Of a DNA stretch of 57,742 nt, positions 6,644 to 38,574 are shown piece by piece; position 1 is the first letter of the stretch; each line of letters opens with the position of its first letter. The notes beneath the pieces are model-generated. The model ran no database searches. It was not told the DNA's origin and saw nothing but the letters and a program-made list of their open reading frames with translations. Made by a program: the position numbers and the translations under genes. This DNA comes from an archaeon (GTDB lineage: Archaea; Nanobdellota; Nanobdellia; Woesearchaeales; ARS49), in contig JAGVQG010000057.1 of assembly GCA_020051845.1 (NCBI GenBank), forward strand, positions 1 to 57,742, read 5' to 3'.

Positions 6644-6692
6644 GATGTATCCGAGCAGAATGTCGCTATATAAAACTTGTCCGTGTCCGAAG

Positions 6693-9329: not shown

Positions 9330-10147
9330 GGTTGTTCTCGGATGCCCGGAATGCGTTGTTCATCTGGCTGAAGTCGCCTTCGTGGTTCATACTCAGCGTC
9401 ATTCTGGACCTTCTCTTCATGATCGTCTATGGTTTCGTCACTGCTCCGATAAAGGGCAAGATAGTGGAGCACGTCCTTGTCATCGGCGGCCTGATATCAC
9501 AGGCAGCGCAGGAGAGCGGCGAGGTGGCTGTCCAGAAGGGGCAGAGCATCATTGCGTTGATGCTTGAAAGGCCTGAAGTTTCTCCTTACTTCCACAGCCT
9601 GTTGCTTCTTTTCGTGATACTGGCAGTCGCGAGCTTTGTCACCTATATCCTGTTCCAGGCGTGCGTCTGGTTTCTGGCGCACCGCAGAGCATCGATGGAG
9701 ATGGATTTGCCCGAGTTCATCAGCAGGTTCGCCTCTTTGAACATCTGGTGGGGCATCCTGGTGATGTTATATAGCGCGGTCACGCTCATCGACTCGATCC
9801 GCATCGCCGTGACAAATTCACAGTCCGACCTGTTCAGCCAATCGCTGATGGTGTTGGCTGTCATAGTCGGCGTCGTCGCGTCATGGACATACGCGTTGCC
9901 CATGAGACAGTCTGGCTGGCGCGGTGCAATCGATGGTTCTGTTTCCGTTTTCAAGCGTTGGAAAGTGACCCTTCCAGCGACATTGCTGGTCATCGTGGGA
10001 TTTGTTCTCCTGAACTACGCGATAATGGGCATCGCGAATTTGTCGACGACAGCGGCGTTCATCGCAGGCATTGTCCTGCTTTTCCCGATAATGGCTTGGG
10101 CGCGCCTTTTCATGGTCGAGTCTGCGAGGCACCATGTGGACGCATGA
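9326..10147 (+). CDS. Polytopic membrane protein, unknown function
   Basis: 273 aa from the ATG at 9326, which overlaps the stop of the upstream mini-gene by 4 nt. About six hydrophobic segments are visible (residues about 20-37, 95-120, 140-160, 180-200, 225-245, 250-268) with short loops (FLAHRRASMEMDLPEF; MRQSGWRGAIDGSVSVFKRW). The general form, with a long loop and the phrase AIDGSVSVFKRWKVTLPATL, recalls DUF4013-like archaeal membrane proteins, but I am not certain. The last 14 nt overlap the start of lgt, so all three genes look like one operon. Confidence 0.7.
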   Translation: MRLFSDARNALFIWLKSPSWFILSVILDLLFMIVYGFVTAPIKGKIVEHVLVIGGLISQAAQESGEVAVQKGQSIIALMLERPEVSPYFHSLLLLFVILAVASFVTYILFQACVWFLAHRRASMEMDLPEFISRFASLNIWWGILVMLYSAVTLIDSIRIAVTNSQSDLFSQSLMVLAVIVGVVASWTYALPMRQSGWRGAIDGSVSVFKRWKVTLPATLLVIVGFVLLNYAIMGIANLSTTAAFIAGIVLLFPIMAWARLFMVESARHHVDA

Positions 10148-10916
10148 CTTGAATCCTATCGCGATATCGCTTGGCTCGCTTGAGATACGCTGGTACGGCA
10201 TAATGTACGTTCTCGCTTTCATCTTCACCTGGTTCTACATGCGCCGTCGCGCGAAGCTGGGAAAGATACCATTGTCTCTGGACGATGTCGAGAGCGCGAT
10301 GACCTGGCTCGTTGTAGGAGTCGTTGTCGGCGGCCGTCTTGGCCATGTGTTGTTCTACGAGCCTTTGTATTATTTGCAGCATCCTATTGAGATATTCGCG
10401 GTCTGGCAGGGCGGATTGTCGTTCCATGGCGGATTGCTGGCGTGCGTGGTTTTCTGCTACATATTCGCGAGGAAGAGGGGCATCGACTTCCTTGAGTTGG
10501 CTGACGCATTCGCCGTTCCTTTGGCGATCGACCAGACTTTCGGCAGGATGGGCAACTTCATCAACGGCGAGCTTTTCGGCCGCGTGACGACCGTTGCCTG
10601 GGCGATGATCTTCCCCGCGGCAGGCGATCTTCTGCCGCGTCACCCGTCCATGCTTTACGAGGCAGGGTACAACTTGATAATCGGCGGGATCCTGTTCTTG
10701 TTGCGCGATGGCAAGAGGAAGCCGGGATTCCTCATCGGCTTGTGGTTCATGTTATACGCCATCGCCCGAGGTATTGTCGAGTTCGTGCGCGTGCCTGACT
10801 ACATGGTCGGACCGCTGACGGCAGGACAGATGTTGAGCATCCCGATGTTCATCGTCGGATTGTGGCTTGTTCTAAGAAAAGACACTCGAAAAAAGGTCAG
10901 CGCGGCAAAGCTTTGA
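10134..10916 (+). CDS. lgt: Prolipoprotein diacylglyceryl transferase (Lgt)
   Basis: 260 aa, the length of bacterial Lgt, with seven hydrophobic segments. The family signature GRMGNFINGELFGR (about 137-150) is intact. The conserved GGLSFHGGL motif with the catalytic-region His (H98) and the late Arg-containing segment ARGIVEFVR are present. In bacteria Lgt attaches diacylglycerol from phosphatidylglycerol to the lipobox cysteine of prolipoproteins. Archaeal lipids differ, so the donor here would have to be an archaeal-type phospholipid (inference). The gene overlaps its upstream neighbour by 14 nt, and its end overlaps the convergent gene by 20 nt. Bacterial-type lgt is uncommon in archaea and was probably acquired by transfer. 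Confidence 0.93.
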   Translation: MWTHDLNPIAISLGSLEIRWYGIMYVLAFIFTWFYMRRRAKLGKIPLSLDDVESAMTWLVVGVVVGGRLGHVLFYEPLYYLQHPIEIFAVWQGGLSFHGGLLACVVFCYIFARKRGIDFLELADAFAVPLAIDQTFGRMGNFINGELFGRVTTVAWAMIFPAAGDLLPRHPSMLYEAGYNLIIGGILFLLRDGKRKPGFLIGLWFMLYAIARGIVEFVRVPDYMVGPLTAGQMLSIPMFIVGLWLVLRKDTRKKVSAAKL

Positions 10917-12031: not shown

Positions 12032-12062
12032 ATATACCGATATATCAAAGAAATTGAACCGA

Positions 12063-12605
12063 ATGATAAAATTAGATGAACTTTTGGGACAACGGAAGGC
12101 ATGGAGGCTGCTGCTTGTGTTTCTGCGGCATCCTTCTAATGAGTTTTTGCAGCGAGAGCTGAGGAAAAAGACGGGTCTATCGAAGGCGACGCTCATCAAA
12201 TGGTTGGGTGTGCTTCACAAACATGATCTGCTTGGGTTGAAGAAGAAAGGAAATGTCCATCTGTATACGCTGCAGAAAGAGGATCCTGTCATAAGGCACC
12301 TCAAAGTCATGGACACGCTTATTCGTATACGTACGCTCAGGACGGTATGTGTGCATCACGGTTGCGAGGCATTCTTGTATGGGAGCGCCGCTCGTGGTGA
12401 GGATAGCGAGGATAGTGATATCGATATCTTGCTCATTGGTAAGATCTCCCGTCTGCAGATCATCGATGAGGTGGATGCGATTGCGCAGAAGATAGGTAAA
12501 CGGATTTCGCTGCAATTGTTTACCTCTATGGAGTGGGCGGCGATGGCTAAGAAAGACCCGGCGTTCTTCGAAAGGGTTGAACATGACAAGGTGAATGTGG
12601 CATGA
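12063..12605 (+). CDS. wHTH-MNT nucleotidyltransferase (antitoxin of HEPN pair)
   Basis: 180 aa. The N-terminal 75 residues form a winged helix (FLQRELRKKTGLSKATLIKW). They are followed by a minimal nucleotidyltransferase core, LYGSAARGEDSEDSDIDILL, with the G-S (107-108) and D-x-D (119/121) metal ligands. In MNT-HEPN systems the MNT partner adenylylates and silences the HEPN ribonuclease. Here the added DNA-binding domain suggests it also represses its own operon (inference). Its TGA overlaps the HEPN ATG (ATGA). The ATG at 12063 is preferred over the TTG at 12054. Confidence 0.88.
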   Translation: MIKLDELLGQRKAWRLLLVFLRHPSNEFLQRELRKKTGLSKATLIKWLGVLHKHDLLGLKKKGNVHLYTLQKEDPVIRHLKVMDTLIRIRTLRTVCVHHGCEAFLYGSAARGEDSEDSDIDILLIGKISRLQIIDEVDAIAQKIGKRISLQLFTSMEWAAMAKKDPAFFERVEHDKVNVA

Positions 12606-13030
12606 ATGTGAATGAGTGTGTGCAGAAGGGCTGGCTGGTGCGCATCGCGCCTGACCAAGAGCTTGTTCACAAGGAGTTGGTCGAGTCCGCGTATGACTTG
12701 GAGAAGGCAGGGAGCGCGCTGGACGATGAAGATTACAAGTGGGGCATCGTCAAGAGCTATTATGCGATGTTTCATGCCGCACGCGCGATTCTCTTCTCTC
12801 TTGGTTACCAGGAAAAGAGGCATGCTGCGGTGACGATAGTGCTTGAAGAGCTGCACAAACAGGGAAAGATCGAGTCGAAATTCGTGACGCAGTTCAAGGC
12901 GGCGATCTCGGCGAGGGAAGACGCGGATTATCATTACACGTACTCTGATGTTCTGGCACGACAGAGTCTTGATATGGCTGAGGAATTCACGCATAGGATG
13001 CAGAAACTTCTTAATCGCGCAGATAAGTGA
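12602..13030 (+). CDS. HEPN-domain protein (putative toxin RNase)
   Basis: 142 aa. Helical, with the typical first-half signature SYYAMFHAARAILFSLGY (52-69) and the R-x(4-6)-H active-site motif as R105-EDADY-H111, followed by tyrosines (HYTY). HEPN toxins are metal-independent ribonucleases. In studied systems the partner MNT modifies a Tyr next to this motif, and Y112/Y114 are candidates. It is translationally coupled to the MNT gene by a 4-nt overlap. A compact RtcB-like gene, a family that repairs 2',3'-cyclic-phosphate RNA ends, lies 600 nt downstream. Confidence 0.88.
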   Translation: MNVNECVQKGWLVRIAPDQELVHKELVESAYDLEKAGSALDDEDYKWGIVKSYYAMFHAARAILFSLGYQEKRHAAVTIVLEELHKQGKIESKFVTQFKAAISAREDADYHYTYSDVLARQSLDMAEEFTHRMQKLLNRADK

Positions 13031-13578: not shown

Positions 13579-13609
13579 AGTAGTTAAAAAATGGTAAGAT
13601 TTATAAAGG
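13579..13609 (+). promoter_or_regulatory. Shared-box promoter 1 (RtcB-like gene)
   Basis: The upstream box AGTAGTTAAAAAATGG at 13579 is followed, 21 nt from its first base, by TTTATAAAGG at 13600. The same arrangement occurs at 18576, 42346 and 43582. The TATA centre is 26 nt before the ATG at 13630, so the mRNA would be leaderless. An in-frame ATG at 13591 would lie on the promoter itself and is rejected. Confidence 0.6.
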
Positions 13610-13629
13610 GGTGTTACTTAGCGCCTATC

Positions 13630-14517
13630 ATGGTCCATATCACAAAATTCACTGATGATTATATCCGGGTTCCTATGTTCCGCGGCCTTGAGGAAGTTGT
13701 AATATTCCCTGGTTCTGAGAATAGGAAATCAATCCCTAACAGCACGGTTTGGGTCTTCAATAAAGAAGGGCATTCGTATAAATCAGAGATATTGCATAAT
13801 GATGTTGGTTGCGGCGTAGCCGGTTTTATCATTTCACAGGTGGATGTTCGTGGATCGGCGGATAAGATATATGATCTGCTCGCGGGAAAGAATATCCTCG
13901 GAAGGGGCAATCATTTTGTGGACGTGTGCGGACCTTTTGATTATTCTGTTCAGGGAATCAATGAACCTCCACATAATCTTCTTTTAATACATTGTGATGG
14001 TAAGACTGTCGATTCTGCCGTTCCGCGTTCGATCGAGGATGCATTGAAAGTGCAGTTGCGCGCGGAACGGTTTAGGCTGGACTTGGGTGAGAGGATCATC
14101 AGTTCTATTGGTGCCAAGGGGAAACTGCTTGGTAACTGGACCCACAATAGTGTGGAGGTTGGTGATTCTGTGATTTATCGTAGGGGCGTTATTAAGGTTC
14201 AAAGTCGCAAGGTTCATCCTTTTCTACGGAGCGTAGGAAGACCGATCGAGTTCTACTCATTCGATGCTGTTTTGCCTGTTTATGACTCGATGCCTCATGG
14301 AGTGGGACGTAAAGGTCCGCTTGGTGAGACTAAGGTGTCATTGCAGGATGCTGCTGCTTTTAGGGCGCGGGTATATGTTCCTGCGGGCATAGCTGACACT
14401 TCATTGAGAAGCGAGCATCCTGATTGTTATAGGACAGGTAGTGATGTTAACAGAATATGTAAGGATATTTTGTGGTTGGGTAAAACTGACGTTCTTGCGT
14501 ATGTTGGAAAGGTTTGA
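13630..14517 (+). CDS. Compact RtcB-like RNA ligase homologue
   Basis: 295 aa from the ATG at 13630, against about 480 for canonical RtcB. RtcB-type motifs appear in order: HNDVGCG (metal-binding C61), GRGNHFVDV (H95), LLLIHCDGK (H121, in place of the HSGSRG motif), THNSVE (H172), YRRGVIKV, and MPHGVGRKG (H223, the position of the guanylylated His in CHGAGR of RtcB). RtcB joins 2',3'-cyclic-phosphate or 3'-phosphate RNA ends to 5'-OH ends using GTP and Mn. The missing segments mean that the activity, possibly RNA repair rather than tRNA splicing, is inference. Base composition is more AT-rich than in its neighbours. Confidence 0.8.
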   Translation: MVHITKFTDDYIRVPMFRGLEEVVIFPGSENRKSIPNSTVWVFNKEGHSYKSEILHNDVGCGVAGFIISQVDVRGSADKIYDLLAGKNILGRGNHFVDVCGPFDYSVQGINEPPHNLLLIHCDGKTVDSAVPRSIEDALKVQLRAERFRLDLGERIISSIGAKGKLLGNWTHNSVEVGDSVIYRRGVIKVQSRKVHPFLRSVGRPIEFYSFDAVLPVYDSMPHGVGRKGPLGETKVSLQDAAAFRARVYVPAGIADTSLRSEHPDCYRTGSDVNRICKDILWLGKTDVLAYVGKV

Positions 14518-14543: not shown

Positions 14544-17500
14544 TCAATTGTTCACAACTAGATGTATGCTCTTAGATGGCAATCCAGGTAGTTTTATTTC
14601 GACATTCACGTGTGGCTCTTTGAGCGGTGTTCCAAGATCTATCTCGGGCGTTTGGTGGATCCTCCAGAATCTCCTGAAAGTCACATATACATTAGGATCG
14701 ACATAATTGATCTCGTCCGAATATGATATCAGTTGGGCGAGATCGGTCTTGCTTATTCTTGTCACGAGCAAGTCTGTTCCTTCGAGTTTCTCCGCGTTTT
14801 GATATGCTTCTTTGATTATGGGGCTGATTTCACTGGATATTATGTTTCTTTTCAAGGATGTCTGTGATTTTGCTTTCAGGAAATAGTCGGCCGCCTCTTT
14901 CGCTATCGTCCGGAGTGTGCCATCGAGCAGCAGTATCCTGTCCTTGTCTGTTGTCATTGTTTCGTATTTTTCGAGAGTCGAATCTATGATGGCCATGTTT
15001 TTCTCTGATAGGATTGTGTCCCTGAATTTTTCCAGGGAATTCATCTCGGATATCGATGCAACTCGGTTGGTGCCGGGTTCACCAAGTATCCTGTTATCCG
15101 CTTTGTTAACGAATGTATCCAAGCTAGGTAATAAGTGGTCATCTATTATCTCGGTCTTTTCAATTGCTAGGGAGTAACTTGCTATATTTGGGTCATATTG
15201 TCTCAATTCCTCGCGTGTATTGATCAATGCCTTCAATTGTTCGTTCATTTTTCTTAGTGTTTTGCTCATTTTTAACGCGCGGTTGTCGGTGTCTGTGATT
15301 AGTGATTCCCATTCAGGGTCGTTCGAAGGTCTTTTTTGATCTTGCGTTCTTATTATATCGCCAATCATTCCGTTTCGGATCTCGTGAGGGACAAAATCTA
15401 TTTCAGGAGTCCATCCATCTTTTATGGACGCCATAAGTTCAGGAGTGAACATCACGCCTTCCACGTTCCTGAATAGATCACCTTTGCCATTTCTTTCGAG
15501 TGCCAGGAGCAGATTGTTGAAATCTCCATTCTTCACATCAATGCTCAGGATATCTCTTGATGTGGGGTCTAGTGCCAAGCGCACTGTTTTTGACAGTTCG
15601 CTCAGGCGCTCGCTTTGCTCTTGCATCAGTGGTATTCCCGCGTTTTGTCGTGAGAGCAGGGACACGAATTCTTCCTCGATTGATCTCAATGACTCGCGTG
15701 CTTTTGCGGATGTGATCAGTCCATGGTACATTTCGTGCAGGTATAGATAGTTCGTAGCTTGTTCGTCTTTTATGCCAGGTATCTCTTTTTTCAGCTCGGT
15801 TTTGGCCGTTTTGAAATCATATAAGCTGTATGGTTTTCCGTCCGAAAGTGTGAATTCAGCCCCCACCACTTTCTTACCTACGCGCATGAATCTCGGCGTC
15901 TCCTTGGATTCTATCTCCTCTACGAGCTGCTGCTCGACGGCTTTTCCTTCCACGAGCCTGTTCCAGGTGCGCACCGCGGCCTCGCTGATCTGTGCAGGAC
16001 TCAACCAATTGAACTTATCGCCTTTGGCGCTGACCATGTCTCGCGCCGTCCTTGCGGTCTCTGCTATTGTTCCTATGATGTTTATTGCTGGGTTCGTGAG
16101 TATCGACAGAACAGCCGCTGCTCTTCCCGTCCTTGCCGCGACTCCTGCCGGAGTTGTTTCAGGCACGAGCGAAGGGCCTGTCGTTCCTGCGGGTGCCGGT
16201 GATTCTACGCTTTCGAAGAATTCAGCGTATCTTTCCCTTCTTGCAAGGGATCTTTGAAGGTCTGCCGCGAGGAATCGGGGGTTGGCGCTGGACCATTTGT
16301 CAGCCTCGACCTGCATATCCTCTATCACGAGTTGTGTCTTGCGATATTGGGATTCCTGCAGGTTTCCGTACCTTAATTTGGCAGTCAGGTCTATTAGGGC
16401 ACTGTCTTCGCCTCGCATGTAGTCGTCCATCATGCGTCTTAGCTCGTTGTCCGTGATCTCGTTCTTTGATCGCGCTATTAGCGCGTTCTGGAGCAATCGT
16501 TCGCGTGCGCGCATCGCGGTCATCTCTTGGGTTGATGAGAATCGTGTCAGGAAATCGTCAGTAGGCGCGCCCTCTATCTTTGAGAGCATTTCATCGATCC
16601 TTTTGCTTGTGGTTTCGGTGTTGTCTCTTATCGTCAGCGCTAGCTCTCGTCCGCGCACTTGCTTGTATAAACTTGAGTCGTGGTTGGCCATCTGGACGTT
16701 CATATCTGCGCCGAGTTTGGCTTCAGGGTATACTGCCCAATAATCGAGCTGCTGCTTGATCATCTCTTTTGTCGGTCTAGTGTATCCTTGGTGTATGAGT
16801 GTTGCTGTGGCAAGCTCTGAGTCTTTTGCCCGTATTTGAGAATCAGTCAGTCCTCCAAGCCGGTTCTGTTCATTCGCTTTGTTTACGGTCTTGATTATAA
16901 GGTCGGGCACCAAGGATAGTTCGCCAGCTTGAAGTGGTACGTCGAATGCGTTGGCCTGTTCATGCAATTCGACGATCTTCAGCATTGTGTTCTCATTTAG
17001 TGTGGCTCTGACTGATGTGGCCATCAGTTCTGGCGCGCTCATCCCTGCGTCCTTGAATATCTGCTCGAGTTTCCCTGGTTCGAGCAATCCTGTGGCTTTC
17101 GCTTTCTCTACGAGCGCGAGTCCTGTGCGGGCCATCTCTGCCACGTCGAACTTTCCATCCGCTTTCATGAAGGCGTTCGGTGGAGTGTATGCTGGGATGT
17201 ATGACGCGTCCCCTATTCCGTCGACAGAAAGTCCTTTCTCGGTCTGGAACGCGGCTCCGCGATCAACTGGCTCTATGTTGATCACGGGTTTTCCATCGCG
17301 TGTTATGGGCTCTCCTTTTGAGTTGCGCGCTTCTGTGTATGCGAAATTGGTGCCCATGTCTACGTGGTGTGTTGCGAGCATCCTGGTCCAGGCAAGCATC
17401 ATATCGATGTCAGGGCTGGTGAGTCTTGCCAATCCGCTTTGTATTGCGCTGTGTGCCAGGTTTTGGTCTATGGCGTTCTCGAGCAGAGGCACAAGGAGTA

Positions 17501-18359
17501 CTGTTGTCTCTTTGCCGTTGACTTCGACGGTGAGCCTGCGTGATTCTTGCAGGTTCGTTCCTAATAGTAGATTGGTGATTCTTGTCTCTGCTATGTCGCG
17601 GGCGGCGTTCTCCCTGTTTCCTGTTATTATTATGTCGCTCCTTCCGTTCTCGATGACATTTTTTAATGGTACTTTCGTGTTCTTGTTCTCTCTGACGAAA
17701 TTTGCGTCGACAGAAGGGATTGCCACCCACTTGCTTTCGACGGTTCCTGAAGGCGTCTGTTCTTTGAGCGTCACTCTGTAAACGCTGGGCATCACACCGA
17801 ACTGTGTCAGCATGGCTATATTGAATCGGTCGAGCGTAGGGTCCTTTCCGAACGCTGATTGCGCGTAAAGGATTTGGGAGTTAAGTCCTCCGGTGCTTCC
17901 TTCCTTGAAGGTCAACACGCTTAGTCCGTCGCGAGATTTGTATTGTGGTTCTTGGACCTGTTCTGGCGTTTCAAACGATCTGAGTCCTTCTTTTGGATTC
18001 TTGTTCGCAGCAAGTCTGTCGTGACGGACCATCCTTTGTTCATTGGATAGTTCGTTCACAGGTTTTTCCGCAACGATCGACTCTATGTTGTGGATGCGCT
18101 CTGCTTCTTGTATGGCTCCGACACTGTCTATTGTGGTCGGCGGTGTAGTTATCTCGTAAAGGACTTGTCGTATCTCGCCTTTGTATGTAGGATCCGATTC
18201 AGAATTGAGTCTTATCTTCAGGAATTTCACGATCTGTTCTTGCGTTGTTCCTTTCTCGCGCATTCTCGCGATAGTTTCGTATAGTTCTGCGCAGCTAGCG
18301 AATGTCGATTGCGCGAGTATCAATATGAGAAGCAGGGCTATGGCATGTCTGAACTTCAT
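14544..18359 (-). CDS. 1,271-aa exported protein, putative lipoprotein, with HEXXH motif
   Basis: The N-terminus MKFRHAIALLLILILAQS ends in TFAS-C23, which fits the classical lipobox pattern, and lgt is present in this window. Residues about 140-375 contain a region with D-x(3)-NF and VDRGAAF (about 335-372), recalling the catalytic and metal-binding loops of PI3/4K- or HipA-like kinases (weak). Residues 875-879 are HEMYH, a zincin-type HEXXH, with glutamates at 895-897 placed to be a third ligand. The rest is long helical or coiled-coil sequence. A 45-aa gene whose stop overlaps its ATG precedes it. Function unknown; it is probably cell-surface, next to the giant gene. Confidence 0.8.
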   Translation of the reverse strand: MKFRHAIALLLILILAQSTFASCAELYETIARMREKGTTQEQIVKFLKIRLNSESDPTYKGEIRQVLYEITTPPTTIDSVGAIQEAERIHNIESIVAEKPVNELSNEQRMVRHDRLAANKNPKEGLRSFETPEQVQEPQYKSRDGLSVLTFKEGSTGGLNSQILYAQSAFGKDPTLDRFNIAMLTQFGVMPSVYRVTLKEQTPSGTVESKWVAIPSVDANFVRENKNTKVPLKNVIENGRSDIIITGNRENAARDIAETRITNLLLGTNLQESRRLTVEVNGKETTVLLVPLLENAIDQNLAHSAIQSGLARLTSPDIDMMLAWTRMLATHHVDMGTNFAYTEARNSKGEPITRDGKPVINIEPVDRGAAFQTEKGLSVDGIGDASYIPAYTPPNAFMKADGKFDVAEMARTGLALVEKAKATGLLEPGKLEQIFKDAGMSAPELMATSVRATLNENTMLKIVELHEQANAFDVPLQAGELSLVPDLIIKTVNKANEQNRLGGLTDSQIRAKDSELATATLIHQGYTRPTKEMIKQQLDYWAVYPEAKLGADMNVQMANHDSSLYKQVRGRELALTIRDNTETTSKRIDEMLSKIEGAPTDDFLTRFSSTQEMTAMRARERLLQNALIARSKNEITDNELRRMMDDYMRGEDSALIDLTAKLRYGNLQESQYRKTQLVIEDMQVEADKWSSANPRFLAADLQRSLARRERYAEFFESVESPAPAGTTGPSLVPETTPAGVAARTGRAAAVLSILTNPAINIIGTIAETARTARDMVSAKGDKFNWLSPAQISEAAVRTWNRLVEGKAVEQQLVEEIESKETPRFMRVGKKVVGAEFTLSDGKPYSLYDFKTAKTELKKEIPGIKDEQATNYLYLHEMYHGLITSAKARESLRSIEEEFVSLLSRQNAGIPLMQEQSERLSELSKTVRLALDPTSRDILSIDVKNGDFNNLLLALERNGKGDLFRNVEGVMFTPELMASIKDGWTPEIDFVPHEIRNGMIGDIIRTQDQKRPSNDPEWESLITDTDNRALKMSKTLRKMNEQLKALINTREELRQYDPNIASYSLAIEKTEIIDDHLLPSLDTFVNKADNRILGEPGTNRVASISEMNSLEKFRDTILSEKNMAIIDSTLEKYETMTTDKDRILLLDGTLRTIAKEAADYFLKAKSQTSLKRNIISSEISPIIKEAYQNAEKLEGTDLLVTRISKTDLAQLISYSDEINYVDPNVYVTFRRFWRIHQTPEIDLGTPLKEPHVNVEIKLPGLPSKSIHLVVNN

Positions 18360-18493
18360 TTCTGCTCTCCCTCCAGCGCGTCAAGGGCGAGTCCGATTAT
18401 GTAGTCGTTAGGCTCGTATCCGCTCTTCTTGAGTTTCTGTATACGTTCGAAATTGCGTTGTGATATCTTGGTTATTTTTGTAAGTACTGCCAC
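18356..18493 (-). CDS. 45-aa protein upstream of and coupled to the 1,271-aa gene
   Basis: It begins with GTG (reading MAVLTKITKISQRN) and ends GLALDALEGEQK. Its TGA overlaps the ATG of the next gene (ATGA). A TATA box TTTTATATA on the minus strand near 18516-18524 is centred 26-28 nt before the GTG, so the message would be leaderless with a GTG start. A second GTG at 18499 is an alternative. The basic helix followed by SGYEPNDYIIGLALDAL looks like a small helical DNA- or RNA-binding or leader peptide. Function unknown. Confidence 0.55.
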   Translation of the reverse strand: MAVLTKITKISQRNFERIQKLKKSGYEPNDYIIGLALDALEGEQK

Positions 18494-18575
18494 AAGCACT
18501 TCTGGTATACTGGAGTATATAAAAGTTGTCTAAAGATTACTGTGGTTAACCATTTATATATATTAATCACTGATA

Positions 18576-18633: not shown

Positions 18634-19530
18634 ATGGTAGATATTGAACTACGTGACATTATTGATGGCTTCAAGGATCCTGAATACGCGATATCTCGTA
18701 TGAAAAAGGATATTCCTACTGATGCTACTGTTCTTGAGGGTAGGATTCGTGATGCGGGTCTAAGGTTGGTCGGCGCCTCGCAAGGGCATCCTGCAAGACA
18801 TCTGGTGACCGCTATCGGCACTTTTCACGACGACCCTGAGCAGGACGCGGCTGTTGTTAGCTACATCTCTTCTTTCAAGAAGGTTTACAGGACACTATAT
18901 TTGTCAGAGGGAGATAAAGGGACTTATGATGTTCCGCTCTCACTTCGCATTAATGGAGAGTTGGCCCGTCTAGGCTGTATAGGTCCTGATGGTCGTCTTG
19001 TGCTTGGTGAGCTTGGATTCTTGGATAAACAGATGGCTGCATTGTCCGATGAACTTGTCAAGGACAAGCGTCTTATTATGGTGCTTAGGAATGAGGGTCG
19101 CGTCAAGGTCAGGAAGATAAAGTCCGATTCTGTCGAGGCCAAATTGGCGCCGTTCTGGTTCGAACACAAAAGTGAGGTGCGTTTCACCGAGGATATTGAT
19201 GCATATGCCGATCAGAATGCGGCCAATGCGCGCTATATCGAGACTATGAACGGTAAGCAGATCCCTGTCCCAGGAACGAAGGAATATGATGCTTGGGAAT
19301 CATTGTTCGCAGGAGTGGTTCATGGAATGGCTTCACGCGACGATCATTTTATTTTCGACGCGACCACTGAATCTCGCTCGCGTCCTGTGATATTGAGGGT
19401 CGGAGCAGGCCACATCATAGGTGGTACTTTGGGTAAGTTCATGGAATATCAAGAAGTGCCTAGTATTCTGTTGTTGCCTGATAAGCCATTCAAGTCTTTT
19501 TTCGGCCAAACATCAAGAATAGGGTCTTAG
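18634..19530 (+). CDS. TraB/ChaN-like protein A
   Basis: 298 aa, soluble, no signal peptide. Two blocks match the TraB/PrgY/ChaN-like superfamily and its paralogue at 42396. The first is TAIGTFHDDPEQDAAVVSYI followed by YLSEG (G-x(2)-H ... E). The second is SRDDHF followed by VILRVGAGHIIGGTLGKF (RD ... VG-x(2)-H-x(2)-GG-x-L). These blocks form the predicted metal or active-site cluster of the fold. Members are linked to peptide-pheromone shutdown, haem-iron uptake or esterase-like chemistry, so no exact substrate can be given. It is convergent with the Cys-rich gene, overlapping it by 18 nt. Its promoter is shared with three other genes here. Confidence 0.6.
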   Translation: MVDIELRDIIDGFKDPEYAISRMKKDIPTDATVLEGRIRDAGLRLVGASQGHPARHLVTAIGTFHDDPEQDAAVVSYISSFKKVYRTLYLSEGDKGTYDVPLSLRINGELARLGCIGPDGRLVLGELGFLDKQMAALSDELVKDKRLIMVLRNEGRVKVRKIKSDSVEAKLAPFWFEHKSEVRFTEDIDAYADQNAANARYIETMNGKQIPVPGTKEYDAWESLFAGVVHGMASRDDHFIFDATTESRSRPVILRVGAGHIIGGTLGKFMEYQEVPSILLLPDKPFKSFFGQTSRIGS

Positions 19531-19909: not shown

Positions 19910-22900
19910 TCAGGTTCTGCAGGCTAGTTTCGCTGCCTCGATATCTCTTAGCGCTTCTGTGATCTTTACGATGGGTTCTGTCGACCTTGTCGTCACGTCG
20001 CGTGTCAGGTCGGCGTCCTTTGGCGAAGCCTTTGACTTTGATGCGGATAGCGACGCTTTCTGCGCTTGTTCGGCTATCGTGCTCTCTTGGGCTGCGGCAG
20101 GGGGTTGTGCGTTTCCTGGTCTTTCCAGTCTCACGAATGCGAGGCTCATGTCATCGTTGTATATGCGCTTGATGCTTCCGTCTTCTATGGTCTTGTATTC
20201 GGAAAGCAATTCCGCGCTTTGGCGTCTTGCTGCGCTACCTATGAATGTGTTATCAATCCATCTTATCGCGCTATCTACCGCTGCTTTTGTCGATTCCCAA
20301 GACTTAGTGAGTATGTTGTTGGCTTTTTTTGGCAGGTATGCTTCTTCTGTGACTATCTTGTTGAACTGTTCACGCATGGCTTCGACTTCGGTGTAGTCGT
20401 TCGAGACTTTTTTGCCTAGTTCAATCATCTCTTTCGCTGAAGGCACCGCTCCCTTATCTAGTACTTCCTGCAGGCGCGCGTCGAATGACTTGAGTTTTTC
20501 TGGTAGTTGGCGTTGTATGAAGTCATTGATTTTCGCGATGTCTGATTGCGATGCGCCCGCGCGTTCCATCCTCGCTCGGACTTTTCTCGCTAGTTCTACT
20601 ATCTCAGGGGATCCTGGTTGCATCGCTTTTTCGGTGAGCGCGTTCAATTCTGATATTTTTATTTGTATTTCTGATTGTAATGTCTTCTGCACCTCTGCAG
20701 GTGTTCTCAGATCCATTGTCTTGAACATCTTTGTTCTTGTCAGGTCTGTGCTCTCAGCTATTCCGTCATTGCGCAGCACCACTGCTTCGAGTCCGTTTGT
20801 CGGTAGTTCGACGCTCTTGACATTTCCGACCACTCCTACCACAGTGCCTCCTTTTGCGGCTGATGGGTTGAATAATAGTTTTCCGTTCACTCTGCTTATC
20901 GTGCTGATGTCGTATCCGAACATGTGCGCTGTCGCGCTCTGGCTGTTCACGTCAAGCACGACTCCGCTCATGAAATGTCCTGGTAGGCTCTTCATGTTCG
21001 CTTTTGAGACGATTGTTGCCATCTGTTTCAACAATTCATTGCGGCCCATCACTGGTGATAGTGCAATCTCCAATTCCGCGTATGTCGCGCTTGTTATTGG
21101 CTTGCCGAGCGTGTTCTCTACAGTGGTTCTCTTCTGCGCTTCGAGTTTGAGCGCTAGGTCCTGCAGCGCGTATCTGCGCATCCTTGAGGTGTAGGCTCTT
21201 AGCGCAGCCGCTTCTGTGCCGTGGTTCTTCTGGTCGCTGAACTCAAAACTGATGGTGTCCTGTCCATTCACGTCTTTGAATGTCCTTGCGCTTACAGTGT
21301 CGCCTCCGAATGTCTGCAGTTGTTGCAGCCACAGGCCCACGTCTTTGACTCCGATGGCTTTTGCCACTGCTTGCACGTCGGCAGGGAGGTCCTCTAACCG
21401 TGATGCTTCCATGCTCTTGGCTTGCGCGAGCTCTTCATAGGTTATCCTTCCGCCAGGCAGTGTCGCCGGGTCTTTCTTTGTGGCTTCTGTGACGAGTGAG
21501 TTCGCGAAGTCGGATACTGCCCTCTTTGCTATTTCGACACTTGTCTGCACAGCTGAATCTTGTGTGGTGGAGAATGTCTCTATGTGTCTTGTTAGCGCCT
21601 CCACCATTATGTCTGCTTCTACCAGTTCAGGTTCACCTCGCAGTTTCTCGAGCCTCTTCACTGCGTCATTGAGGGTCAATGTCTTTCTTTGGCCCCCGAT
21701 GACGATGTTTATCTCTTCGGTCTCTTTTGCCGCGGGTACTAGTGTCTCTCTTATGAACACGGTGGGTGTCCTTGTCTCTTCGCCCATTATGGTCTCAAGA
21801 CGCATCTGAACCTGCTCTGTGAGAAGTGCGGATTTGGTGTGGTCTTGCGCGGTGTAATCCGTAGACTCTATCCTTGTCTGCAGTTCTTGCAGTATGCCTT
21901 GCTTTCCTTGCAGCACTTCTTCTCTTGTGGTGATTCGCAGTTCGTTGACTATGTTTCGTATCGCGGCTTTTTGTTGTTCTCCGCGCAGTGCGGTCGTCGC
22001 ATGTAGCGCGTCAGGTGCTGTGAGTGGGTTGTTCACCCATTCCGCAATCCGTTGTCGGGTTATGATCTCTGTCGCCGCGAGAACCGCGCGTTCGTACGCG
22101 TTGCCCGAGACGAATTCCCTTGTCGCGGCCGTGTTCTCGACGACGGTTTTCTCGATTCCGGCTGGGAATGCCTGTCTTTGCGCAGCAGCTATCACGTCTT
22201 GCGGTGTGTTTGGTGAGTTTTCGTATAGTTCGGGATTTGTCGCTCGTTCCAGCTCCTGCCTGACTCTCCACGCCTCGCGCAGCACAGTCCGGTCTGTCGG
22301 GGGTATTGTCGATATGAAGTCGGCCTCTGCCAACAAGCCTATCTCATGCGCTCGTGTGGGTGAGAAGCCGTGGTTTAGCGCGGCCGCTTCAGATAGTTCG
22401 TGCGTCAGTATCATCTTTTCCAGTTGTGCTTTCTGGGCAGGGTTTGCCGCTACCCTGTCTGTTATCATCGTGGTGAACGCGTCGATGTTCTCCCTGATTA
22501 TGACTACTTCGTAGATCGGCCTTCCCGTGATCGTGTTTATCCCGATCTCCCTTCTTGTCGCGGGGTCTAGTACAGGGTCGCCGGCAGTTCTTGTGGATTG
22601 GACGCTGATCTTAACTTCTGCCGCTATCGCAGGATCTTGCAGTCCACGCACTGGCAGTTTAGGTAGTTCGATTGTGTTGACCGCGGATAGGACTTTCGGG
22701 ATCACTTCAGATGCTTCTTTGTTTGTCTCTGCTGTTGATTCGACGCTTTCCTTGCCGACTGCGCGTTCGATGACTTCCAACGATCCCAAGTATGCTCCTT
22801 TGTTGCCGTATTCGGCGCTGATGAATTCTTTGCTTCCGATCTTGAGGCCTTGTAGCTGGCTGGGTTTGAGGTTGACCTCTTTTGTTGGTTGTATATTTTG

Positions 22901-25900
22901 GCTGCCTACTTCGATGGAGTTCGTGCCGACGTTCTTTATCTTGACCAGTCCATTTTGGAATACTATCTCAAGCTGGTCCCTTGAGATTTTTAGCTGTCCT
23001 TCGTTGGCGATTTGTAGTCGTTTAGGATCCCCTGCTTCAGACCGCCTTCCAAGTATTATCTTTTCTCCTTCATTGAGTGATAGTTGTTTTCCATCGTTCA
23101 CACGTATCACGACGCCGCCTTTTGGCTTGGCGGCTGGCGCGGATATCTCGGCGCCCAGGGATATCACGACATTCTTTGCGAATCCTATCTGTGTGTCTGT
23201 GGTTAGTGGTGCTGCTTTGAATCCGATGTTCTGTCCATTAACGCGGACTCCGTTCTTGCTGCCTATGTCTTGGATCATAACAACGCCGTTCTCTATGAAT
23301 ACCTCTGCGTGTCTTCCCGAGACTGTCATGTCACCTATGATGAAGTTGTTCGGATTTTCGGTCTCTAGTGCTTTGTCACGTCCTATGACTAGCCTTTCCC
23401 CGGGCCTTAGGATGACTGTCTTTCCTGCGATGGTTATCTTTCGCGCGGTTTCAACTGCGGGGCCAGCGACTATCTGCACTGGTGGTTCGGCGACAGCGGG
23501 CTGTGCAGCGGGTCCTCCGAATATGTTTCCTATCGGCAGTTCTTTCACTTCGACAATCGTCTTCTCTCCTCCTTCTCTCGGGGTCACTTCGATTCGGTCA
23601 GCGACGACCCTGTTCTGGCCGTCGGTTTCCACTATCCTGACGATCTTATTGTTGCCGATTATTCTCTCATCTCCAAGCACGGTCTTGGTTTTTACCGGGC
23701 CTTCTTGTACGATGTTCATCCTTTCAAGGCGTTGGAAGCCGTACATGTCTCCGAAACCTTCGATCTTTCCTTCGTATGTCTTTATCCAGACTATTCCGTC
23801 TAAGTCGACTGCCACGGAATCGAATCTCTTGCCTTGCTTGAGTCCGGAATCAAGTGATTGTGCGAGTCTGTCTTTTGCTGTGAGCGGCACCTTGACCGCA
23901 GGAACCACTGATTCGGGTGCGGCGGGTTTTTGAGCTTTTGATTCTGCCAGTTCGATGGTTTTTGGTATGTCTCCTTGTCCTGTGATGAACTCATCATAGG
24001 TGACTATTCTTCTTGAGATTGAGTCGGCGTTCGGTTTGTCTATCAATCCGGCTGTCTGCGCTTTGTTGAGCATCTCGCGCAGCGCGATTCTGTCTATTGC
24101 TTCGGGTACGACGTATGCTTTGTGGTTTGCAATATCAGATGGATTTCCCTTCACAGGGTTTGTGTCGACAACAATGTAGAATGGGCCGTGCGGACCTGCG
24201 GTTGTTGTTGTATCGCCATTCGCAAGTTGACCGAATTGTCCCTGTATGATTTCTCCTTCAATCATTATTCTAATGATATTGCTTAGACCGCCTTTTTCGA
24301 TTTCTGTTCCCTGGGCCCATAGATTTTTGTCTGCCCCAATGTCCAATACTTCTAGTCGCTGTTTCTCTAGCTTGTCGGAATTTTTTCTATCGGTTATCTT
24401 TTGATTGACTTCTGGGTTGTTCTTCACTGCATCTGAGAATGCCTTTTGTTCGTAAATGAATAAGTATGCGTCAAGGGTTTTCTTAGCGCCAGCGCTTAGT
24501 TGTGATTGGACTTGTGCTCTTATTTCAGGGGCAAGATTAGAGTATATGATGTGTCCCATTATGCCTTTTGATTCAATCATATTTACTACGTTCTGGAGTG
24601 TGTATTCCTGGTCTAAATCTCTCGCGATTATCTCGTTCTGGGCGACTGGCAATTTCACTGCGGGTGCTGGTGTCTGTGCCGCGGGTTTTGGCGATTGTTG
24701 TGCGATATCTTGCGCTGTTTGTATGGTCTCTCTATCTATTATGGCCAGTCGTGTGTTCTGTTTTCCGAACAATTGTGCAAGTCTTGTGCTTCCAAAGCTT
24801 GTCGCGTCGCGTTCGAAGTACAGATTATCTCCTTCGTATCGCATCGTTATGTCTGTGTTGGCTATTCTTCTTGTGTATCCTAATCCTGAAACAAGGTAGT
24901 ACGTGTCAGTTCCTCCTTCGCGTGCGATGTCGACCTTTGCGACTGTGTCTACTGCTGATTCGAACATCGTTATTGATTTTACTCCTTCGCCTGCGGGTAA
25001 TCGTATCTGGTTGGCAAGTTCTTTGTTGACTGTGTCGATTGTCGTCCTGACTTTTGTAGTGGGTGCGGCGGGTGTCACGACTGGTTGCGGTCTTGGTTGT
25101 GCTTCAGGTTGTGCAATAGGCTCGGGCACGACTGGTTTTGCTTCTACTGGTGCAGGTTTTGCGGTGGCTGGCGCTTCGGGTTTAACGACAGGTTCAGGCA
25201 CTTTCACGACTGGTGCGGGCGTTACTGATTCTGGCGGCGTTATTGCGGGTTTCTCGGCTACGGGTTTCGCAATCGCTTCAGCCGCTGCTCTCGCTTTTGT
25301 CAGGTCGATCGGAGTGCCGACTTTATTGCCGCGGTCGCTGCTTCTTAGGGAGCTCAGCTCGACCCAGTCTGATGGTGTGTATTTGACAAGCTGGTTTATT
25401 CCTGTGTAGATTCGTTTCAATGGGACTAGGTTCAGGAAGGCTAATGGAGTGAGCATCCCTGTTGCAGTCACTGTTGCAGCGGTTATGGCTATGTCTGTCG
25501 GTATTCCTAGTTTTGTCAAGTATCTAGGATAGAATGGCATTATTTGCGCTTGTGTTGATTGACCTATGATCTCTCCGTTTTCATCTTTTATGTTCACCTT
25601 TTCTACCCTTAGCACCTTTCCGTCCGAGAGTCTCATCACGTCTCCGACAGCCATCGTGCGTTGGGTTTCTATGCTCTTTCCGAGCAATCCTAGGCTGAAT
25701 ATCCTTGGCAGTATTCCTCTGGGTTGGGTTGTCTTGACTAGCAATGTTCCTTGGTCTGTCGTTCTTAGGGATACTGTCACAGGGGTGGTGATTGTTCCTT
25801 TGCTGTCTTTGATATGCATTGACTCTTGCATTTTGCTGCCGAATATGCCGCCCTCGACAGTGCTTGTTGGTTTCACGACTGCATCGTTTAATTGGAGTTT

Positions 25901-28900
25901 TCCGTCCACAACGCTCAGTGTGCGTCCGTTCTCTAGGGTGTATACTCTGTTGGTGTCGAGTGTTAAGGTTTTGGACGTCCTTGATCCTAGCAGGCTACTC
26001 TGTTCAAGCTGCACGATTGTTTCACCTGTTGGAAGAACGGTGATATCTGTGATGCTTGTGCGTGGTGGTAGGTACTGTCGTAGGTTTGCGGCTTCTTCTG
26101 CTGTCGGTGTGACTTTGTTCGTAGTCTCGGGCGCAACGGGCGCTTGTTGCGCAGGTGCTACAGGTTTGCCCGTTTCTATAGGTGCGGCTTGCGGAGCCGC
26201 TGGCGCGCCTGCTTTTGTGGCTTCAATGAATGTTTGTGCGAGTACTGATTCGTCGACTTTGCCATTGGTCGTTGATTGTCCGACCATATTTGCATATTCT
26301 TGTGATGTCGGTATCTTGTTGTTGAGGGCTTCAGATAGGGTGAGTTTGCCTTCCATCACACCCTGGAGCGCTGTGCTGAGCCTGTCATTGTCGACTTTTC
26401 CGTTCTCAGTGAATCTCTCACGCAGTTTCACGAGGTTGTCGCCTGCGAATATTTCCTTTAGATTCAATTCAAGGTTGCGCTGTATCGATGGGCCTTTTGG
26501 ATCGAAGCCGCTCTTATCTAGATATTTGTAAAGGCCCATCTCGGTCATCATTCTGTCTGCTATCTCTGGATGCAGGGTGTCTGTTGCCAACTTCAGGAGC
26601 TGTTTGACAGTCACTGCGCGATCTGTCGGGAAAGTTGATCCGATCCTATCGAGGTCTTTGTTTCCTTTTATCGCATCCATAGCTGCTTTGTAGTCTGCTT
26701 CTACTGGTTTGTATCCCTCGATTGTTGTCACGCTACGGACGAATCTTAGTGGGAACTCGTGGCGCTGCGGCAGGTTTGTTTCAGGTATCACGAACCTGTT
26801 CTGTTGGGCATCGCTCACGAAAGAATCAGGTGTTGATATTCGTCCATCTGAACCGATGAGGTTCCTTGTCCTTGACAGTCCTTGTATGAATGCGATGTCT
26901 GGTGAATACTTGCCATCGACAGCTACTACGTCGAGGCGCACGCCAGATCCGCCCGCGTCGAGGATCATCTGCATGTTGGCTAGAAGTTTTTCTTGTTGTG
27001 GTCCGAGATTCCTTCCTAGCCGTGCCTGCTCGGCCAGCATCTGTTTGGCGCTTTCGGTGAGAGGCGCGTCTTGCAGCTTCACTACTGCGAGCGCCGCCTC
27101 GCTCGGTATGCCTATGTCCAGATCGCGGCCTTCGCCTGCTGTCGGTTTGGCTCCGCGCAAAGCTTTCTCTGCGTTGCCTCCTGCTATCTGTACGTTTATG
27201 CCTAGTTTGTTGGCGTAGTCAAAGACGCTCGATACTGCTTCGTCGACTTTTATCGTGACTGCTCTTCCGCTTTCGGATACTATGGATTGTTCGTTCCTTG
27301 TCTGTTCAGTGAATGGCTTTGCAGGTAGTGATAGTGCTTCTGCTTGTGCAGGCGCTTCTCTGCGTACCTGGGCTGTTGTGTCATCGAACATGATTTTTTC
27401 TGTTATTACGCTTCCATCTGCGTTTCGCAGGTATGACCCGTCTGTGTTCCTCAATCTTACATTAATCCCTGTGGCATCGACGCTTATGAACTCTGCTTGT
27501 TGAGCATCCTTTCCTTGGCGTCGGACTTCGAGCGCGCTGCCTTCGGTCATTTCTCTTGCGGCGATACGTAATGCCTCTCCGGATCGGGGTTCACCGAATA
27601 GAGGCACTATCTTTGGAGGTGCGGGTGTTACTTCGACGGGTGTTGGTCGTACTGCAGGTTGCGCGACTGCAGGTGTTGCTGGAGCGGCGGGTACTGCTGC
27701 GGGTTGAGCGGCTGCTTCTACTGCTTTGGCTGATTCTGCCAGGTTGCTTCTCACTATCGCTTGCGCCGCGAGGTTCTCGCCGACGATGCTTGCGACGGTA
27801 GCGACTTGGGCCTGACCCGCGCTTTGCACGTAGTCGAATGCTGCTTTCTTTACTTCTGCGCTGTCGCGGCTTATCTCTAGACGGAGTTCGTTCATAAGTT
27901 CTGCCGGCAGAGTCTCTCCTGCCGCGAGCCGTCTCGCGACCTCTGCGTTCACTCCAGCATCACGGAATGGTTTGCCTCCTGCAAGTACTTGGGCAAATCT
28001 GTTGTTGAGTTCCTGCTCGACCATCGCGCGTTTGTAGAGTTCATACTTCTGGACCTGTTCAGTGGTCATGGTCTTGATTTTGAGATCAGTGGGTGGAGTG
28101 TTACTCTGCTGTTCCTGGTATTCTTGTTGTGCTTTCACGAATTCAGGGTCGCCAGTGAAACGGATGAGCTCTGCGGTTGCGGGCTTCGCTGTCTCAGATC
28201 TTGCTTTTGTTGTCGCGTCCTGTAGTATCTGCGCGGCGGTTTCTGCCCTTGCGTATGGCTCGAGATTTACGTCTCCGTTATTCTTGATAGACGCCACTAC
28301 TGCGTTGGCGACCTGTTGAGCGTCTGCTGCGCTCTCGGCGTCAAGCGGGGTTGCCGAGGCTGCTGCTTGCTGTCTCTGTAGTTCTTGTACGAGCGGCGCT
28401 ATCTTGGATTGGTCGTTTATTCCCTCCTTCTGCTGTCTTTCGACTTCTTTGGCGAGTTTTCCGAGGGCTTCGTAATATGTCTTGGTTCGGCTCAGCGCGC
28501 CTCCCTCGGCGTTTGCCATAGATTCAGAAAATGATCCCAATGCCGCGGTCAAATCAGAGGCTGCTTTCTCTCTTATGGTTTTTGCTGCTTCAGGCAGTAG
28601 TGTCGCTTTGTTCGTCTCTATGAATTGTGCCGCGTGTATCGCATTCTGCGCTTTTGGTATCACTTCGCTTACTGCTCGGTCTATGACGCCGCCTGTTTCT
28701 GCTATTGAGCGAACCATTGACTCGGCAGTGCCTGTGGTGATCATTCCGAGCCGCCGTTGCTGGTCAACGACTTCAATGGCTGCTTGGGTGTGTTTTAGGT
28801 TCGCTAGCTTGAACGCTGTTGCGTCCAGGCCGGGTGATTTCATTCCTGCCTTGACCTCTTCAGGTGTAAGCACGCCCGTCGCTTTTGCGCGTTCAGCAGC

Positions 28901-31900
28901 GGCTTCGTTCATTCGTTGCACGGCAGAGATGAGATTATCATTACCTTGGACTTTGTCAAGGGCGGCATTGATGGTTTTCTGCGTCTTACCTTCACCGACC
29001 ACTTCAGCCAATACATTTGCTCTTGCTTTGGTCTCCGCAGCCGCGTATTGTGCGTTTATCTCGGATTCCGCTTGGTTCTTGGTTCCTGCAGTAAGTGATC
29101 CTAGTTTCTTTATCGCGGCGTCTCTTTGAGCGGTCAAAGGTTCGAGCGCATCCTTCACCTTTGCTTCGTACGCAATTTTTTGTGGTTCTGCTAGTCTTCT
29201 TTCCACGGCCTGCGTCGCGAATGTGGCGTCCTGCAACGCGGTCGCTCTTTCTTGTGATGCTCGTTGTGTGATCTCAGGAACGGTCCTACCCAGGATTCTT
29301 CCGGTGGTGCGCGCTGCTGCTGCTTCCATTCCACGCGTGCCGATGGCGAAGGTTACGCCGCCGACCAGGGCATGTCCTGCTATGCTTTCTATGTCGATCT
29401 TTTCTCCTTTCAACCACGCAGAAGTTACTTCTGGAACGACCGCGGGCACTAGCATTGCTGTTTGTGTTATTGCCTCTTTTCCTACGAACTCCGCGAGCTT
29501 ACCGATGGTCTGGCCGCTGTTTAGGGAACCTTGCACGAATGAACGCACGCCATTACCGAAACTCGCCGCCGCGCTGTGCGATATCGATCCTGCACCGAAG
29601 AAGGCAAGTGACGTCGAGTACGCGTTTGCGGCGGCTATGCTCGTGCCCAGGACTCCGCGCTCGCTCAGCGTAGTTATTCCAAGATTGTCCTTCCAGGATT
29701 GTGCGTTTGTGATCTTGCCGTTGTAGGCCATGTCCATCGTGTTTATGGCAAGTCCGCCGCCGTATTGTGCGGCTTGATTCACTCCTTCGAAGATGGCCGT
29801 TCTGGCCAAGAATTGCACGGCAGGTCTTGCGCCAGCCCGCACTCCTGTGGAAAGCCAATTGATTGCTTGTACTGCTTTGGCCCCTCCCATGACGGATGTT
29901 CCAAGTCCCATGGTCGCCAGACTGAGTACTAAAGTTTGGTCTCCTAGATATGTGTCCATCCAATTTTCCTTTAGTCCATATTCGATGTTTGCATCGACGT
30001 GGACAGCCGCGTTCTTGATGTATTCCCGGTTTATGCTGAGCGTTCCAGCTTTTTTGTCTTCAGTGATGACGCCTTGTTTGATGGCATTCTGCTTGAGTCC
30101 TTCATCGAGATTGTTGATGCCTTGTGCCGCGACAAGGCTCATGACGAGACCGCGCGCAACGTTCGTTTTCGCCGTTGCCAGGGAGCTGTCGGTGTACTCG
30201 TTGAAATTTCCATTGACTGCTTGTGTTACGAGTCTGTTGCTCTTTGAGAGGTATGATCCTTCGAGGCGGTGTTCGACAAGATATCTGGCGTAGTTGCCCT
30301 CAAGGTCTGTGGCTGCCGCGCCTGCGTTGAGCGCCATGATGTCGTTCGTGTTTCTGTTGCCTATTATCGAGTCGAGTTGTTTCTTGTAAGCTGCGACTGA
30401 ATTCACGTAGTTTTCTTGCGGCATGGTTTTCTGCTGGGTTTGCAGTCTGTCCATGCCGGTCTTTATCTCAGCCAGAATTTTACTTTGTTGGACGAACGCG
30501 AAATCCGAATCCCTTGTGGTCGTTGTGCCGTCGCTCAGGTATGCGTTCATTAGATCCTGCCCCGATCGTGCGGTCGCCATTCTTTTTCCTGTGAGCTCGT
30601 TGAGGGATTTGACGTCGTTGTCGTTTTGAAGCGCTTTTGTCATTGCTTTTGCGGCGTCATCATAGCGTGTTCCCTTGTCCATGAGGTCGCGCATGCCTTT
30701 CGCGATATTTTCATCTATGCTTGTCTCTAATTGTTGTTTGATCTCGACTTGCGCCCTGTTGAACGCGTAATCCTGCAGGTTCGTGCCTGCCATGTTCTGT
30801 GACTGCATCGAGAAGCTCGGGTGTTTCTGCACGAACTGTGCCATCTGAGATTCGAGAAGCTCGCCTGTCGCTCCGTTCTTTATGGCGCGGTAGCTCTCCA
30901 TGTTTGCGGCTTTCTTGAAGTCGGTCTCAAGAACCTGGTCTGCGGCGTTGCGGACTGTCGCTACCCACTCTTGTGTGTGTTGGTTGTCATAATCTGATTT
31001 CAGTGCCGTTCCGTACTTCCTCTGGTTGTAGGCTTGGTCTTGTGCGAAAGCGAGCGCGAGTGAGGGGTCTCCGTTCATGATGATCTTGGCGCGCAAGGCC
31101 ATCAATTGCATGTCTTTGCTGTTCTCGGCTTGTTTGTCGACGTAGTCTTTTGTTGACATGCTTGGCGCTTGGTCGACCCAGGTCTTCAGTCGTGAATCCG
31201 TGTCAATCATTAGTGCGGAGAAGCTCGAGACTATTGCTCGTTTGTTCTCAGTCTTTACAGTGTCGAGATCATTGACTGCTGTCTTGATTAGGTCTGGTAC
31301 GTTGGCATTCTGGCCAAGTTTTCCTCGTTCTGCCAAGGATAGACCACTGAGCAGCCTGATTCGTTCCTCCTGCGCCCGTATGTCCAGATTGTCAGAACCC
31401 TTCCTGCCTTGTATGTCAGCGAGTGCGGTGGTTGTGGCTTTGACTATGTTCTCTTGGTTTGTGATTTGCTGCTCTAGGGTCTTTTGGTAATCTGTGAATT
31501 GTCCAGAATCAGCTTTGAGCTTGTCTATTCGTTCACTCAGGAATATCTTCTCGTTGGCGTCTGTTGTTCTGCTTAGTCTGTCCTGCAAGGTCTTGATTCT
31601 TGTGTCGATTGCTTCGTTCCCAGTCTGGATCGCGTACTTTGCGCTTTTCAGAAGGTCTTGCTGTCCTGCCCTTATTTTGAGGAGCCTGTCAAGTTCGGTC
31701 GCAGTGGTGCTTGGCCGGCCCAGGCCAATTCTTGTGGCTTCGACCTGGTTGTATTGCGCTTCGGCCATCTTGTCCTTGCGTCCGGCCAGTGCGACATTGT
31801 CGATTGATAGCGACCGCAGGTCGCTTATCTGTTCCAGAAGATCGATGCTTTCGGGTTTGACTCCTTGTCGTGTCAGGAATGATTTGTCGTTTTCAGTCAG

Positions 31901-37944: not shown

Positions 37945-38426
37945 GGTTGGCTCCTGTGGGTGTAGAAGTATTCCGCTCCTCGCAGCGGTATGGCGTCGCT
38001 CATCGAGGGTGTTATTGCTGTTGTGAGATGCACTTCGACCCCACGTACAGTCATTGTCCCCTCGTAATGAGTTATCGCTGTGAGATTTCCGTCTTTGTAC
38101 AGTATCGTTTGCGCGCTGGCAAGATGGGCGTCAGTGGCCAATTCGTTCATTTGTTTGATTAAAGGGTCCGCGGCGCGTTCAGACGCCACGACGCATAAAA
38201 GTGCTACGCAGAGATTGTTCTTGAGGTTTGGGGTTACGGTTATGCTTGGTCCTATGTGCTCGGTCAATAGCACACCTTTCTTTGCGAGATCGTGGACGTG
38301 CTTGTTGGTCCACCCGTAACTGAGGTTTATTTTTGCGGAGAGCTGTCGTATGGTTATGGGTCTGGGTAGATGTTCGAAATGGCGTATTATGGGATAGCCG
38401 CTAAGGGGTCCCTCTTTTATGCGCAT
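37941..38426 (-). CDS. Winged-helix regulator heading the giant-protein operon
   Basis: 161 aa. Residues about 8-60 are a MarR/ArsR-like winged helix (PIIRHFEHLPRPITIRQL, then LSYGWTNKHVHDLAKKGVL). The C-terminal half is a possible sensing domain. It is the first gene of the operon and overlaps the pilin-like gene by 4 nt. A minus-strand TATA (ATATATATAC near 38450-38460) puts transcription start at or near the ATG. A TGATAACA site sits between TATA and ATG, and further palindromes lie upstream, so autoregulation is likely (inference). Confidence 0.75.
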   Translation of the reverse strand: MRIKEGPLSGYPIIRHFEHLPRPITIRQLSAKINLSYGWTNKHVHDLAKKGVLLTEHIGPSITVTPNLKNNLCVALLCVVASERAADPLIKQMNELATDAHLASAQTILYKDGNLTAITHYEGTMTVRGVEVHLTTAITPSMSDAIPLRGAEYFYTHRSQP

Positions 38427-38433
38427 AGTTGAT

Positions 38434-38537: not shown

Positions 38538-38574
38538 AACATGGTGTTTATGACCCTGCTTTTCTGCGGGTTCT

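Follow-up and report, generated by a model that had tools for sequence, protein, structure and literature searches.

An apparent chimera of an exported, probably zinc-peptidase-like protein and the partner of a compact RtcB-like RNA ligase in an archaeon of the order Woesearchaeales

Background

A 1,271-aa protein with a signal peptide, encoded next to a compact RtcB-like RNA ligase gene in an archaeal genome, raises the question of what kind of protein it is and how an exported protein came to stand beside an RNA ligase. The window analyzed here, a stretch of 57,742 nucleotides, spans one entire contig; the genome, 1.33 Mb in size, is assembled into 68 contigs. Its archaeal origin is supported by a thermosome chaperonin (NF041083, 824 bits), by a glutamyl-tRNA synthetase of the archaeal type and by an excess of TTTATATA boxes over expectation; the order is made up of many families. 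The initial annotation of this locus described a surface lipoprotein enzyme with a protease part and a part resembling HipA or PI-kinases. The 1,271-aa reading frame, the signal peptide, Cys23 and the D-x3-N and VDRG strings were all found where that annotation had placed them (Table 1). However, it overlooked that the last 274 residues are separately conserved, and this changes what the protein is. Below, the first 997 residues are referred to as the N-part and residues 998-1271 as the C-part.

Table 1. Positions in the window of the features discussed in the text
Feature	Position	Strand	Basis or remark
lgt, prolipoprotein diacylglyceryl transferase	10134..10916	+	PF01790 E=1.6e-76; TIGR00544 220 bits, cutoff 118.9
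Compact RtcB-like RNA ligase	13591..14517	+	convergent with the 1,271-aa gene; ~310-aa family
1,271-aa ORF, from ATG	14544..18359	-	exported orphan N-part (1-997) and RtcB-partner-like C-part (998-1271)
C-part, residues 998-1271, diverged from a helical protein of ~280 aa that elsewhere stands alone	14547..15368	-	A1 profile, 269 bits (window sequence included in profile)
Candidate third ligand among E895-E897	15669-15677	-	helix after the HEXXH helix in the model
HEMYH, residues 875-879, zinc-peptidase signature	15723..15737	-	PS00142 match
Second hydrophobic segment, residues 748-766, borderline transmembrane	16062..16118	-	Kyte-Doolittle 1.59
Residues 130-390, proposed kinase-like region, unsupported	17190..17972	-	no Pfam, NCBIfam or PDB match
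Signal peptide, residues 1-22, lipobox-like TFAS preceding Cys23	18294..18359	-	hydropathy, single Cys
45-aa leaderless ORF, GTG start	18356..18493	-	ATGA overlap with the 1,271-aa gene
Archaeal TATA box TTTATATA	18516..18523	-	3' end 23 nt before GTG 18493

Results and discussion

The C-part and its stand-alone homologues

When the whole protein was searched against the genomes of the order, the strong matches covered residues 1023-1269 and no other part, and they lay in frames of 275-297 aa. Single-sequence matches to the C-part, which are independent of the A1 profile built for this family, go down to E 2.6e-25, and the A1 profile itself, which includes the window sequence as one row, aligns with the window from position 4 to position 275 of its 276 positions. 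The start codons of the homologues fall at M998, and the alignment spans the entire partner protein. Ten further genomes of the order encode a stand-alone homologue; the fused form was found only in the window, with a frame of 1278 aa versus 275-297 aa for the others. By these comparisons the 1,271-aa protein appears to be a chimera, whose fused C-part is homologous to the stand-alone protein. The C-part is the most diverged copy, with a mean identity of 24% versus 28-37% among the others, and the neighboring RtcB-like protein lies within the range of its own family (44% identity). We discarded a match to Cse2 (E 0.015-0.15), which was weak and helical.

The RtcB-like ligase and its helical partner

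PF01139 was matched by 10 of the 11 members of the RtcB-like family (best 2.5e-9), the window copy falling below the threshold of that model. Six residues, D71, C74, H108, H134, H185 and H236, are invariant in the 11 sequences, and we take them to be the metal-binding Asp, Cys and His residues and the nucleophile His of RtcB. The RtcB-like and partner genes stand tail-to-tail, about 8-53 nt apart, in all 11 genomes that carry them (the window and loci L002-L011). Separate profiles for the RtcB-like protein (E<1e-130) and for the partner (E<1e-79) retrieved the same 11 of 352 genomes; since the carriers coincide in separate searches, this is strong evidence that ligase and helical partner form a functional pair. 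In four further genomes the RtcB-like protein is more distantly related (E about 1e-46 to 1e-50), and no match to the partner profile was found in these four. Ligases of the RtcB type depend on GTP and manganese; the one encoded here is presumably cytosolic.

The arrangement is reminiscent of RtcB-associated repair pairs such as RtcB2-PrfH (PMC9223846): a compact RtcB-like gene carrying the RtcB-type catalytic residues is always accompanied by a second gene, the homologue of which forms the C-part here. In contrast to such pairs, the partner described here is helical, matches no named family and is neither PrfH nor archease. The ligase falls about 100 residues short of the 426-position Pfam model of RtcB, and only in the window genome has the partner become part of an exported protein. 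A different overlapping gene pair in the window (12054-13030, + strand), encoding a winged-helix/nucleotidyltransferase and a helical protein, matches the PADLOC candidates PDC-M05A (5e-27) and PDC-M05B (2e-8) and is similar to MNT/HEPN toxin-antitoxin or defence pairs.

Export of the N-part and the lipoprotein enzymes of the order

A strongly hydrophobic stretch (residues 6-24, Kyte-Doolittle 2.16) lies just before Cys23, which is the sole Cys of the protein, and export is well supported. The lipobox TFAS-C23 proposed in the initial annotation was confirmed by eye, as MKFRHAIALLLILILAQSTFAS-C23 fits PROSITE PS51257; F at -3 is atypical, and ASCA|E would suit signal peptidase I too. Lipidation at Cys23 is plausible, and the N-part is probably membrane-anchored.

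The nearby lgt gene mentioned in the same annotation is real by both PF01790 and TIGR00544, and it is located 3.6 kb from the stop of the 1,271-aa gene. Bacterial-type Lgt was identified in 33 of 37 genomes of the order and bacterial-type LspA in 31 of 37; in the host genome (96.6% complete) LspA was not found, whereas Lgt is present. A RefSeq study of 2026 reported Lgt to be absent from archaea (PMC13251419), and a review of 2025 states that archaeal homologues of the bacterial components of lipoprotein biogenesis have not been identified (PMC12186497). The widespread occurrence of Lgt in this archaeal order stands against the published absence. Among the lgt loci of the order other than that of the window (L041-L048), lgt adjoins archaeal-type genes in L045, including an Asp/Asn-tRNA synthetase-like ORF (by eye), and is located beside ORFs with lipobox-like starts in L047, while the membrane-protein gene 5' of lgt also recurs in L047 and L048. 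The window also encodes a protein with a Peptidase_S74 (endosialidase chaperone) domain (50797-52326, + strand), and a similar-looking C-terminal stretch occurs near lgt elsewhere in the order (L046:3139-3723, - strand).

A probable zinc-peptidase-like site in the N-part

The HEMYH motif with downstream glutamates (E889 and E895-897), on which the protease claim had been based, is part of a full PS00142 signature, LYLHEMYHGL, at residues 872-881. This signature arises in 0.1% of shuffles of the 1,271-aa protein, and bare HEXXH in 1.4%. In a predicted model of residues 770-1271, for which aligned relatives covered the C-part only, HEMYH lies in a helix (865-881) and E895-897 in the next one (885-906), and three low-confidence strands precede them; pLDDT is about 53-80 over residues 849-929, about 53-77 across the HEXXH and Glu helices, and about 73-77 in the helix with E895-897. 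Strands followed by the HEXXH helix and then by the Glu helix are the order typical of gluzincins. Because the signature is rarer than expected by chance and the predicted helix order fits, a zinc-peptidase-like part is probable. We consider a gluzincin-like site and zinc binding likely, with proteolysis having a somewhat weaker claim than zinc binding.

The protein would share with gluzincins, including minigluzincins (projannalysin, 4jix), the full PS00142 HEXXH and a Glu on the following helix, and 4jix gave a weak phmmer match over the HEXXH motif (E=0.97). It differs from them in that no significant sequence or fold match to gluzincins was obtained. No profile of a zincin family matched the 1,271-aa protein, and the matches listed by Foldseek and VIA-align for residues 770-1271 were taken up by the C-part, with no zincin among them; the best fold match (Z 8.8, IncA) is to the helical bundle of the C-part and within the range expected for bundles.

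No credible homologue of the N-part was found in 352 genomes of the order and 371 of the phylum, in two genome-contig scans, or in viral contigs or phages, and no curated family matched it. Secretion-ATPase-like matches to residues 378-465 (E 0.006-0.07) are weak and look like chance, and a match to residues 860-937 in genome G114 is a phosphatase-like ORF without HEXXH; both were rejected. The N-part shares no domains with the 5693-aa protein encoded next to it. This exported giant protein (19910-36991, - strand) has FHA-like and nucleotidyltransferase-like stretches (by eye) and a HELSEA string, and the neighbors of its gene at 36988-42274 encode exported or pilin-like proteins.

The leaderless upstream gene

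A GTG-initiated gene upstream, starting at the transcription start and with its stop overlapping the start of the 1,271-aa gene, had also been predicted, and both the ATGA overlap and the TATA box agree with it. The TTTATATA motif occurs 8 times in the window versus 0.39 expected, and the box of gltX ends at 6667, 24 nt short of the gltX start codon at 6643. The position of the TATA box supports the leaderless 45-aa reading over a 47-aa start at 18499, and a leaderless 45-aa gene at this position is well supported. By eye only, its product resembles ribbon-helix-helix proteins, with a strand followed by two helices; no family match was found, and no clear relative among 57 genomes. A 298-aa orphan (18634-19530, + strand), divergent from the leaderless promoter region, has weak Csx1 similarity (E 0.012).

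Origin of the fusion

Among 26 genomes of the family, the partner occurs in the window genome alone. The GC content is 0.42 in the C-part and 0.45 in the RtcB-like gene, as against 0.50 in the N-part and 0.51 in the giant gene. These features can be accommodated by a scenario in which the RtcB-like ligase and its partner, arranged tail-to-tail as a two-gene cassette, were inserted at the 3' end of a gene for an exported protein, and the entire partner was joined in frame to the exported N-part and then diverged. Acquisition of the cassette, in-frame fusion and divergence would together explain the family distribution, the GC contrast and the faster evolution of the C-part. The cassette looks as if acquired horizontally, and the chimera is probably recent. 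In this scenario, the first ~997 residues would form a surface peptidase-like protein, exported and probably anchored in the membrane, with a likely gluzincin-type site (HEMYH at 875-879 and a Glu near 895-897). The C-part would either be a passenger whose former role is being lost or also be made separately, from M998 or by cleavage, for the cytosolic ligase. We favor, with some reserve, this reading of the protein as a chimera of an exported zinc-peptidase-like N-part and an entire RtcB-partner-like protein arising from cassette insertion.

The signal peptide should export the C-part, which conflicts with the presumably cytosolic location of the ligase that it would serve. The conflict would disappear if the C-part were made separately from M998 or released by cleavage, if residues 748-766 crossed the membrane, or if the old role had been lost. 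Two proteins could be made from one ORF, a full-length exported one and a cytosolic partner of the RtcB-like ligase initiated at M998, where the homologues begin; the RtcB-like gene retains its catalytic residues, so the partner should still be needed. However, no clear Shine-Dalgarno sequence or TTTATATA box precedes M998 and the C-part evolves faster than its homologues, and we regard this alternative as somewhat unlikely.

The fusion is known from the assembly of one genome, in which a misassembly or a frame error is possible, and the N-part and the partner might be separate genes in the cell. An assembly or base-call artefact would fit the occurrence of the fusion in one of 11 genomes, the MAG-like assembly of 68 contigs and the difference in composition across the junction. 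Against it, the frame is continuous over 3.8 kb, GC declines gradually from about residue 850 and not at the junction alone, and the junction DNA is present in a single copy in the genome, so that a repeat-driven misjoin is unlikely, although another error is possible. Taken together, an artefact appears unlikely.

The topology conflict would also be solved by two membrane crossings, with the signal peptide serving as an anchor and residues 748-766 as a second segment, so that the peptidase-like part and the C-part are both cytosolic and the RtcB-like ligase is held at the membrane. The hydropathy of this segment is in favor of such an arrangement, but it contains N and P and its score on a Hessa-like scale is unfavorable (3.6), which makes this topology decidedly unlikely. 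In its full form, this reading has a membrane-anchored zinc peptidase tether a compact RtcB-like ligase to the membrane through a cytosolic C-terminal domain, in a DPANN-like archaeon; we consider it very improbable.

The proposed kinase-like region

The loops that had been likened to those of HipA and PI-kinases are DMGTNF (residues 334-339) and VDRGAAF, with Asp at 366. As in HipA and PI3/4-kinase-like folds, Asp, Asn and DxG follow in the same order, but nothing else was confirmed. The usual loop of kinases, PI-kinases and HipA is D-x4-N, whereas DMGTN is D-x3-N, one residue short, and the D-x3-N...DxG pattern arises in 27% of shuffles of the 1,271-aa protein. No kinase was matched at E up to 10 in searches of profiles, NCBIfam and PDB sequences, and a single-sequence AF2 model of residues 125-480 is uninformative (pLDDT 34). 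With short spacing, frequent chance occurrence and neither a profile match nor an informative model, the kinase claim is unsupported rather than disproved. A surface lipoprotein enzyme that joins a protease to a kinase of the HipA or PI-kinase type is thus very improbable in spite of the zinc signature and of the modeled strand/helix order before DMGTNF, which bears a loose resemblance to a kinase C-lobe; ATP is also expected to be missing for an exported kinase. Of the enzyme originally proposed, export stands and a zinc-peptidase-like part is probable, while the kinase part is unsupported. Elsewhere in the window, a protein-kinase-domain gene (46470-47288, - strand; PF00069, 1e-13) with an HTDVKPHN loop is present in this archaeal genome.

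Conclusions

If the lipoprotein reading holds, an archaeal Lgt of the bacterial type would have a candidate substrate in the 1,271-aa protein. Were the membrane-held RtcB-like ligase true, an envelope event would be coupled to RNA repair. The RtcB-like ligase and its helical partner constitute a testable two-gene family, unnamed by the tools and sporadic in the order, and the present case illustrates how a gene pair associated with an RNA ligase can become linked to an exported protein.
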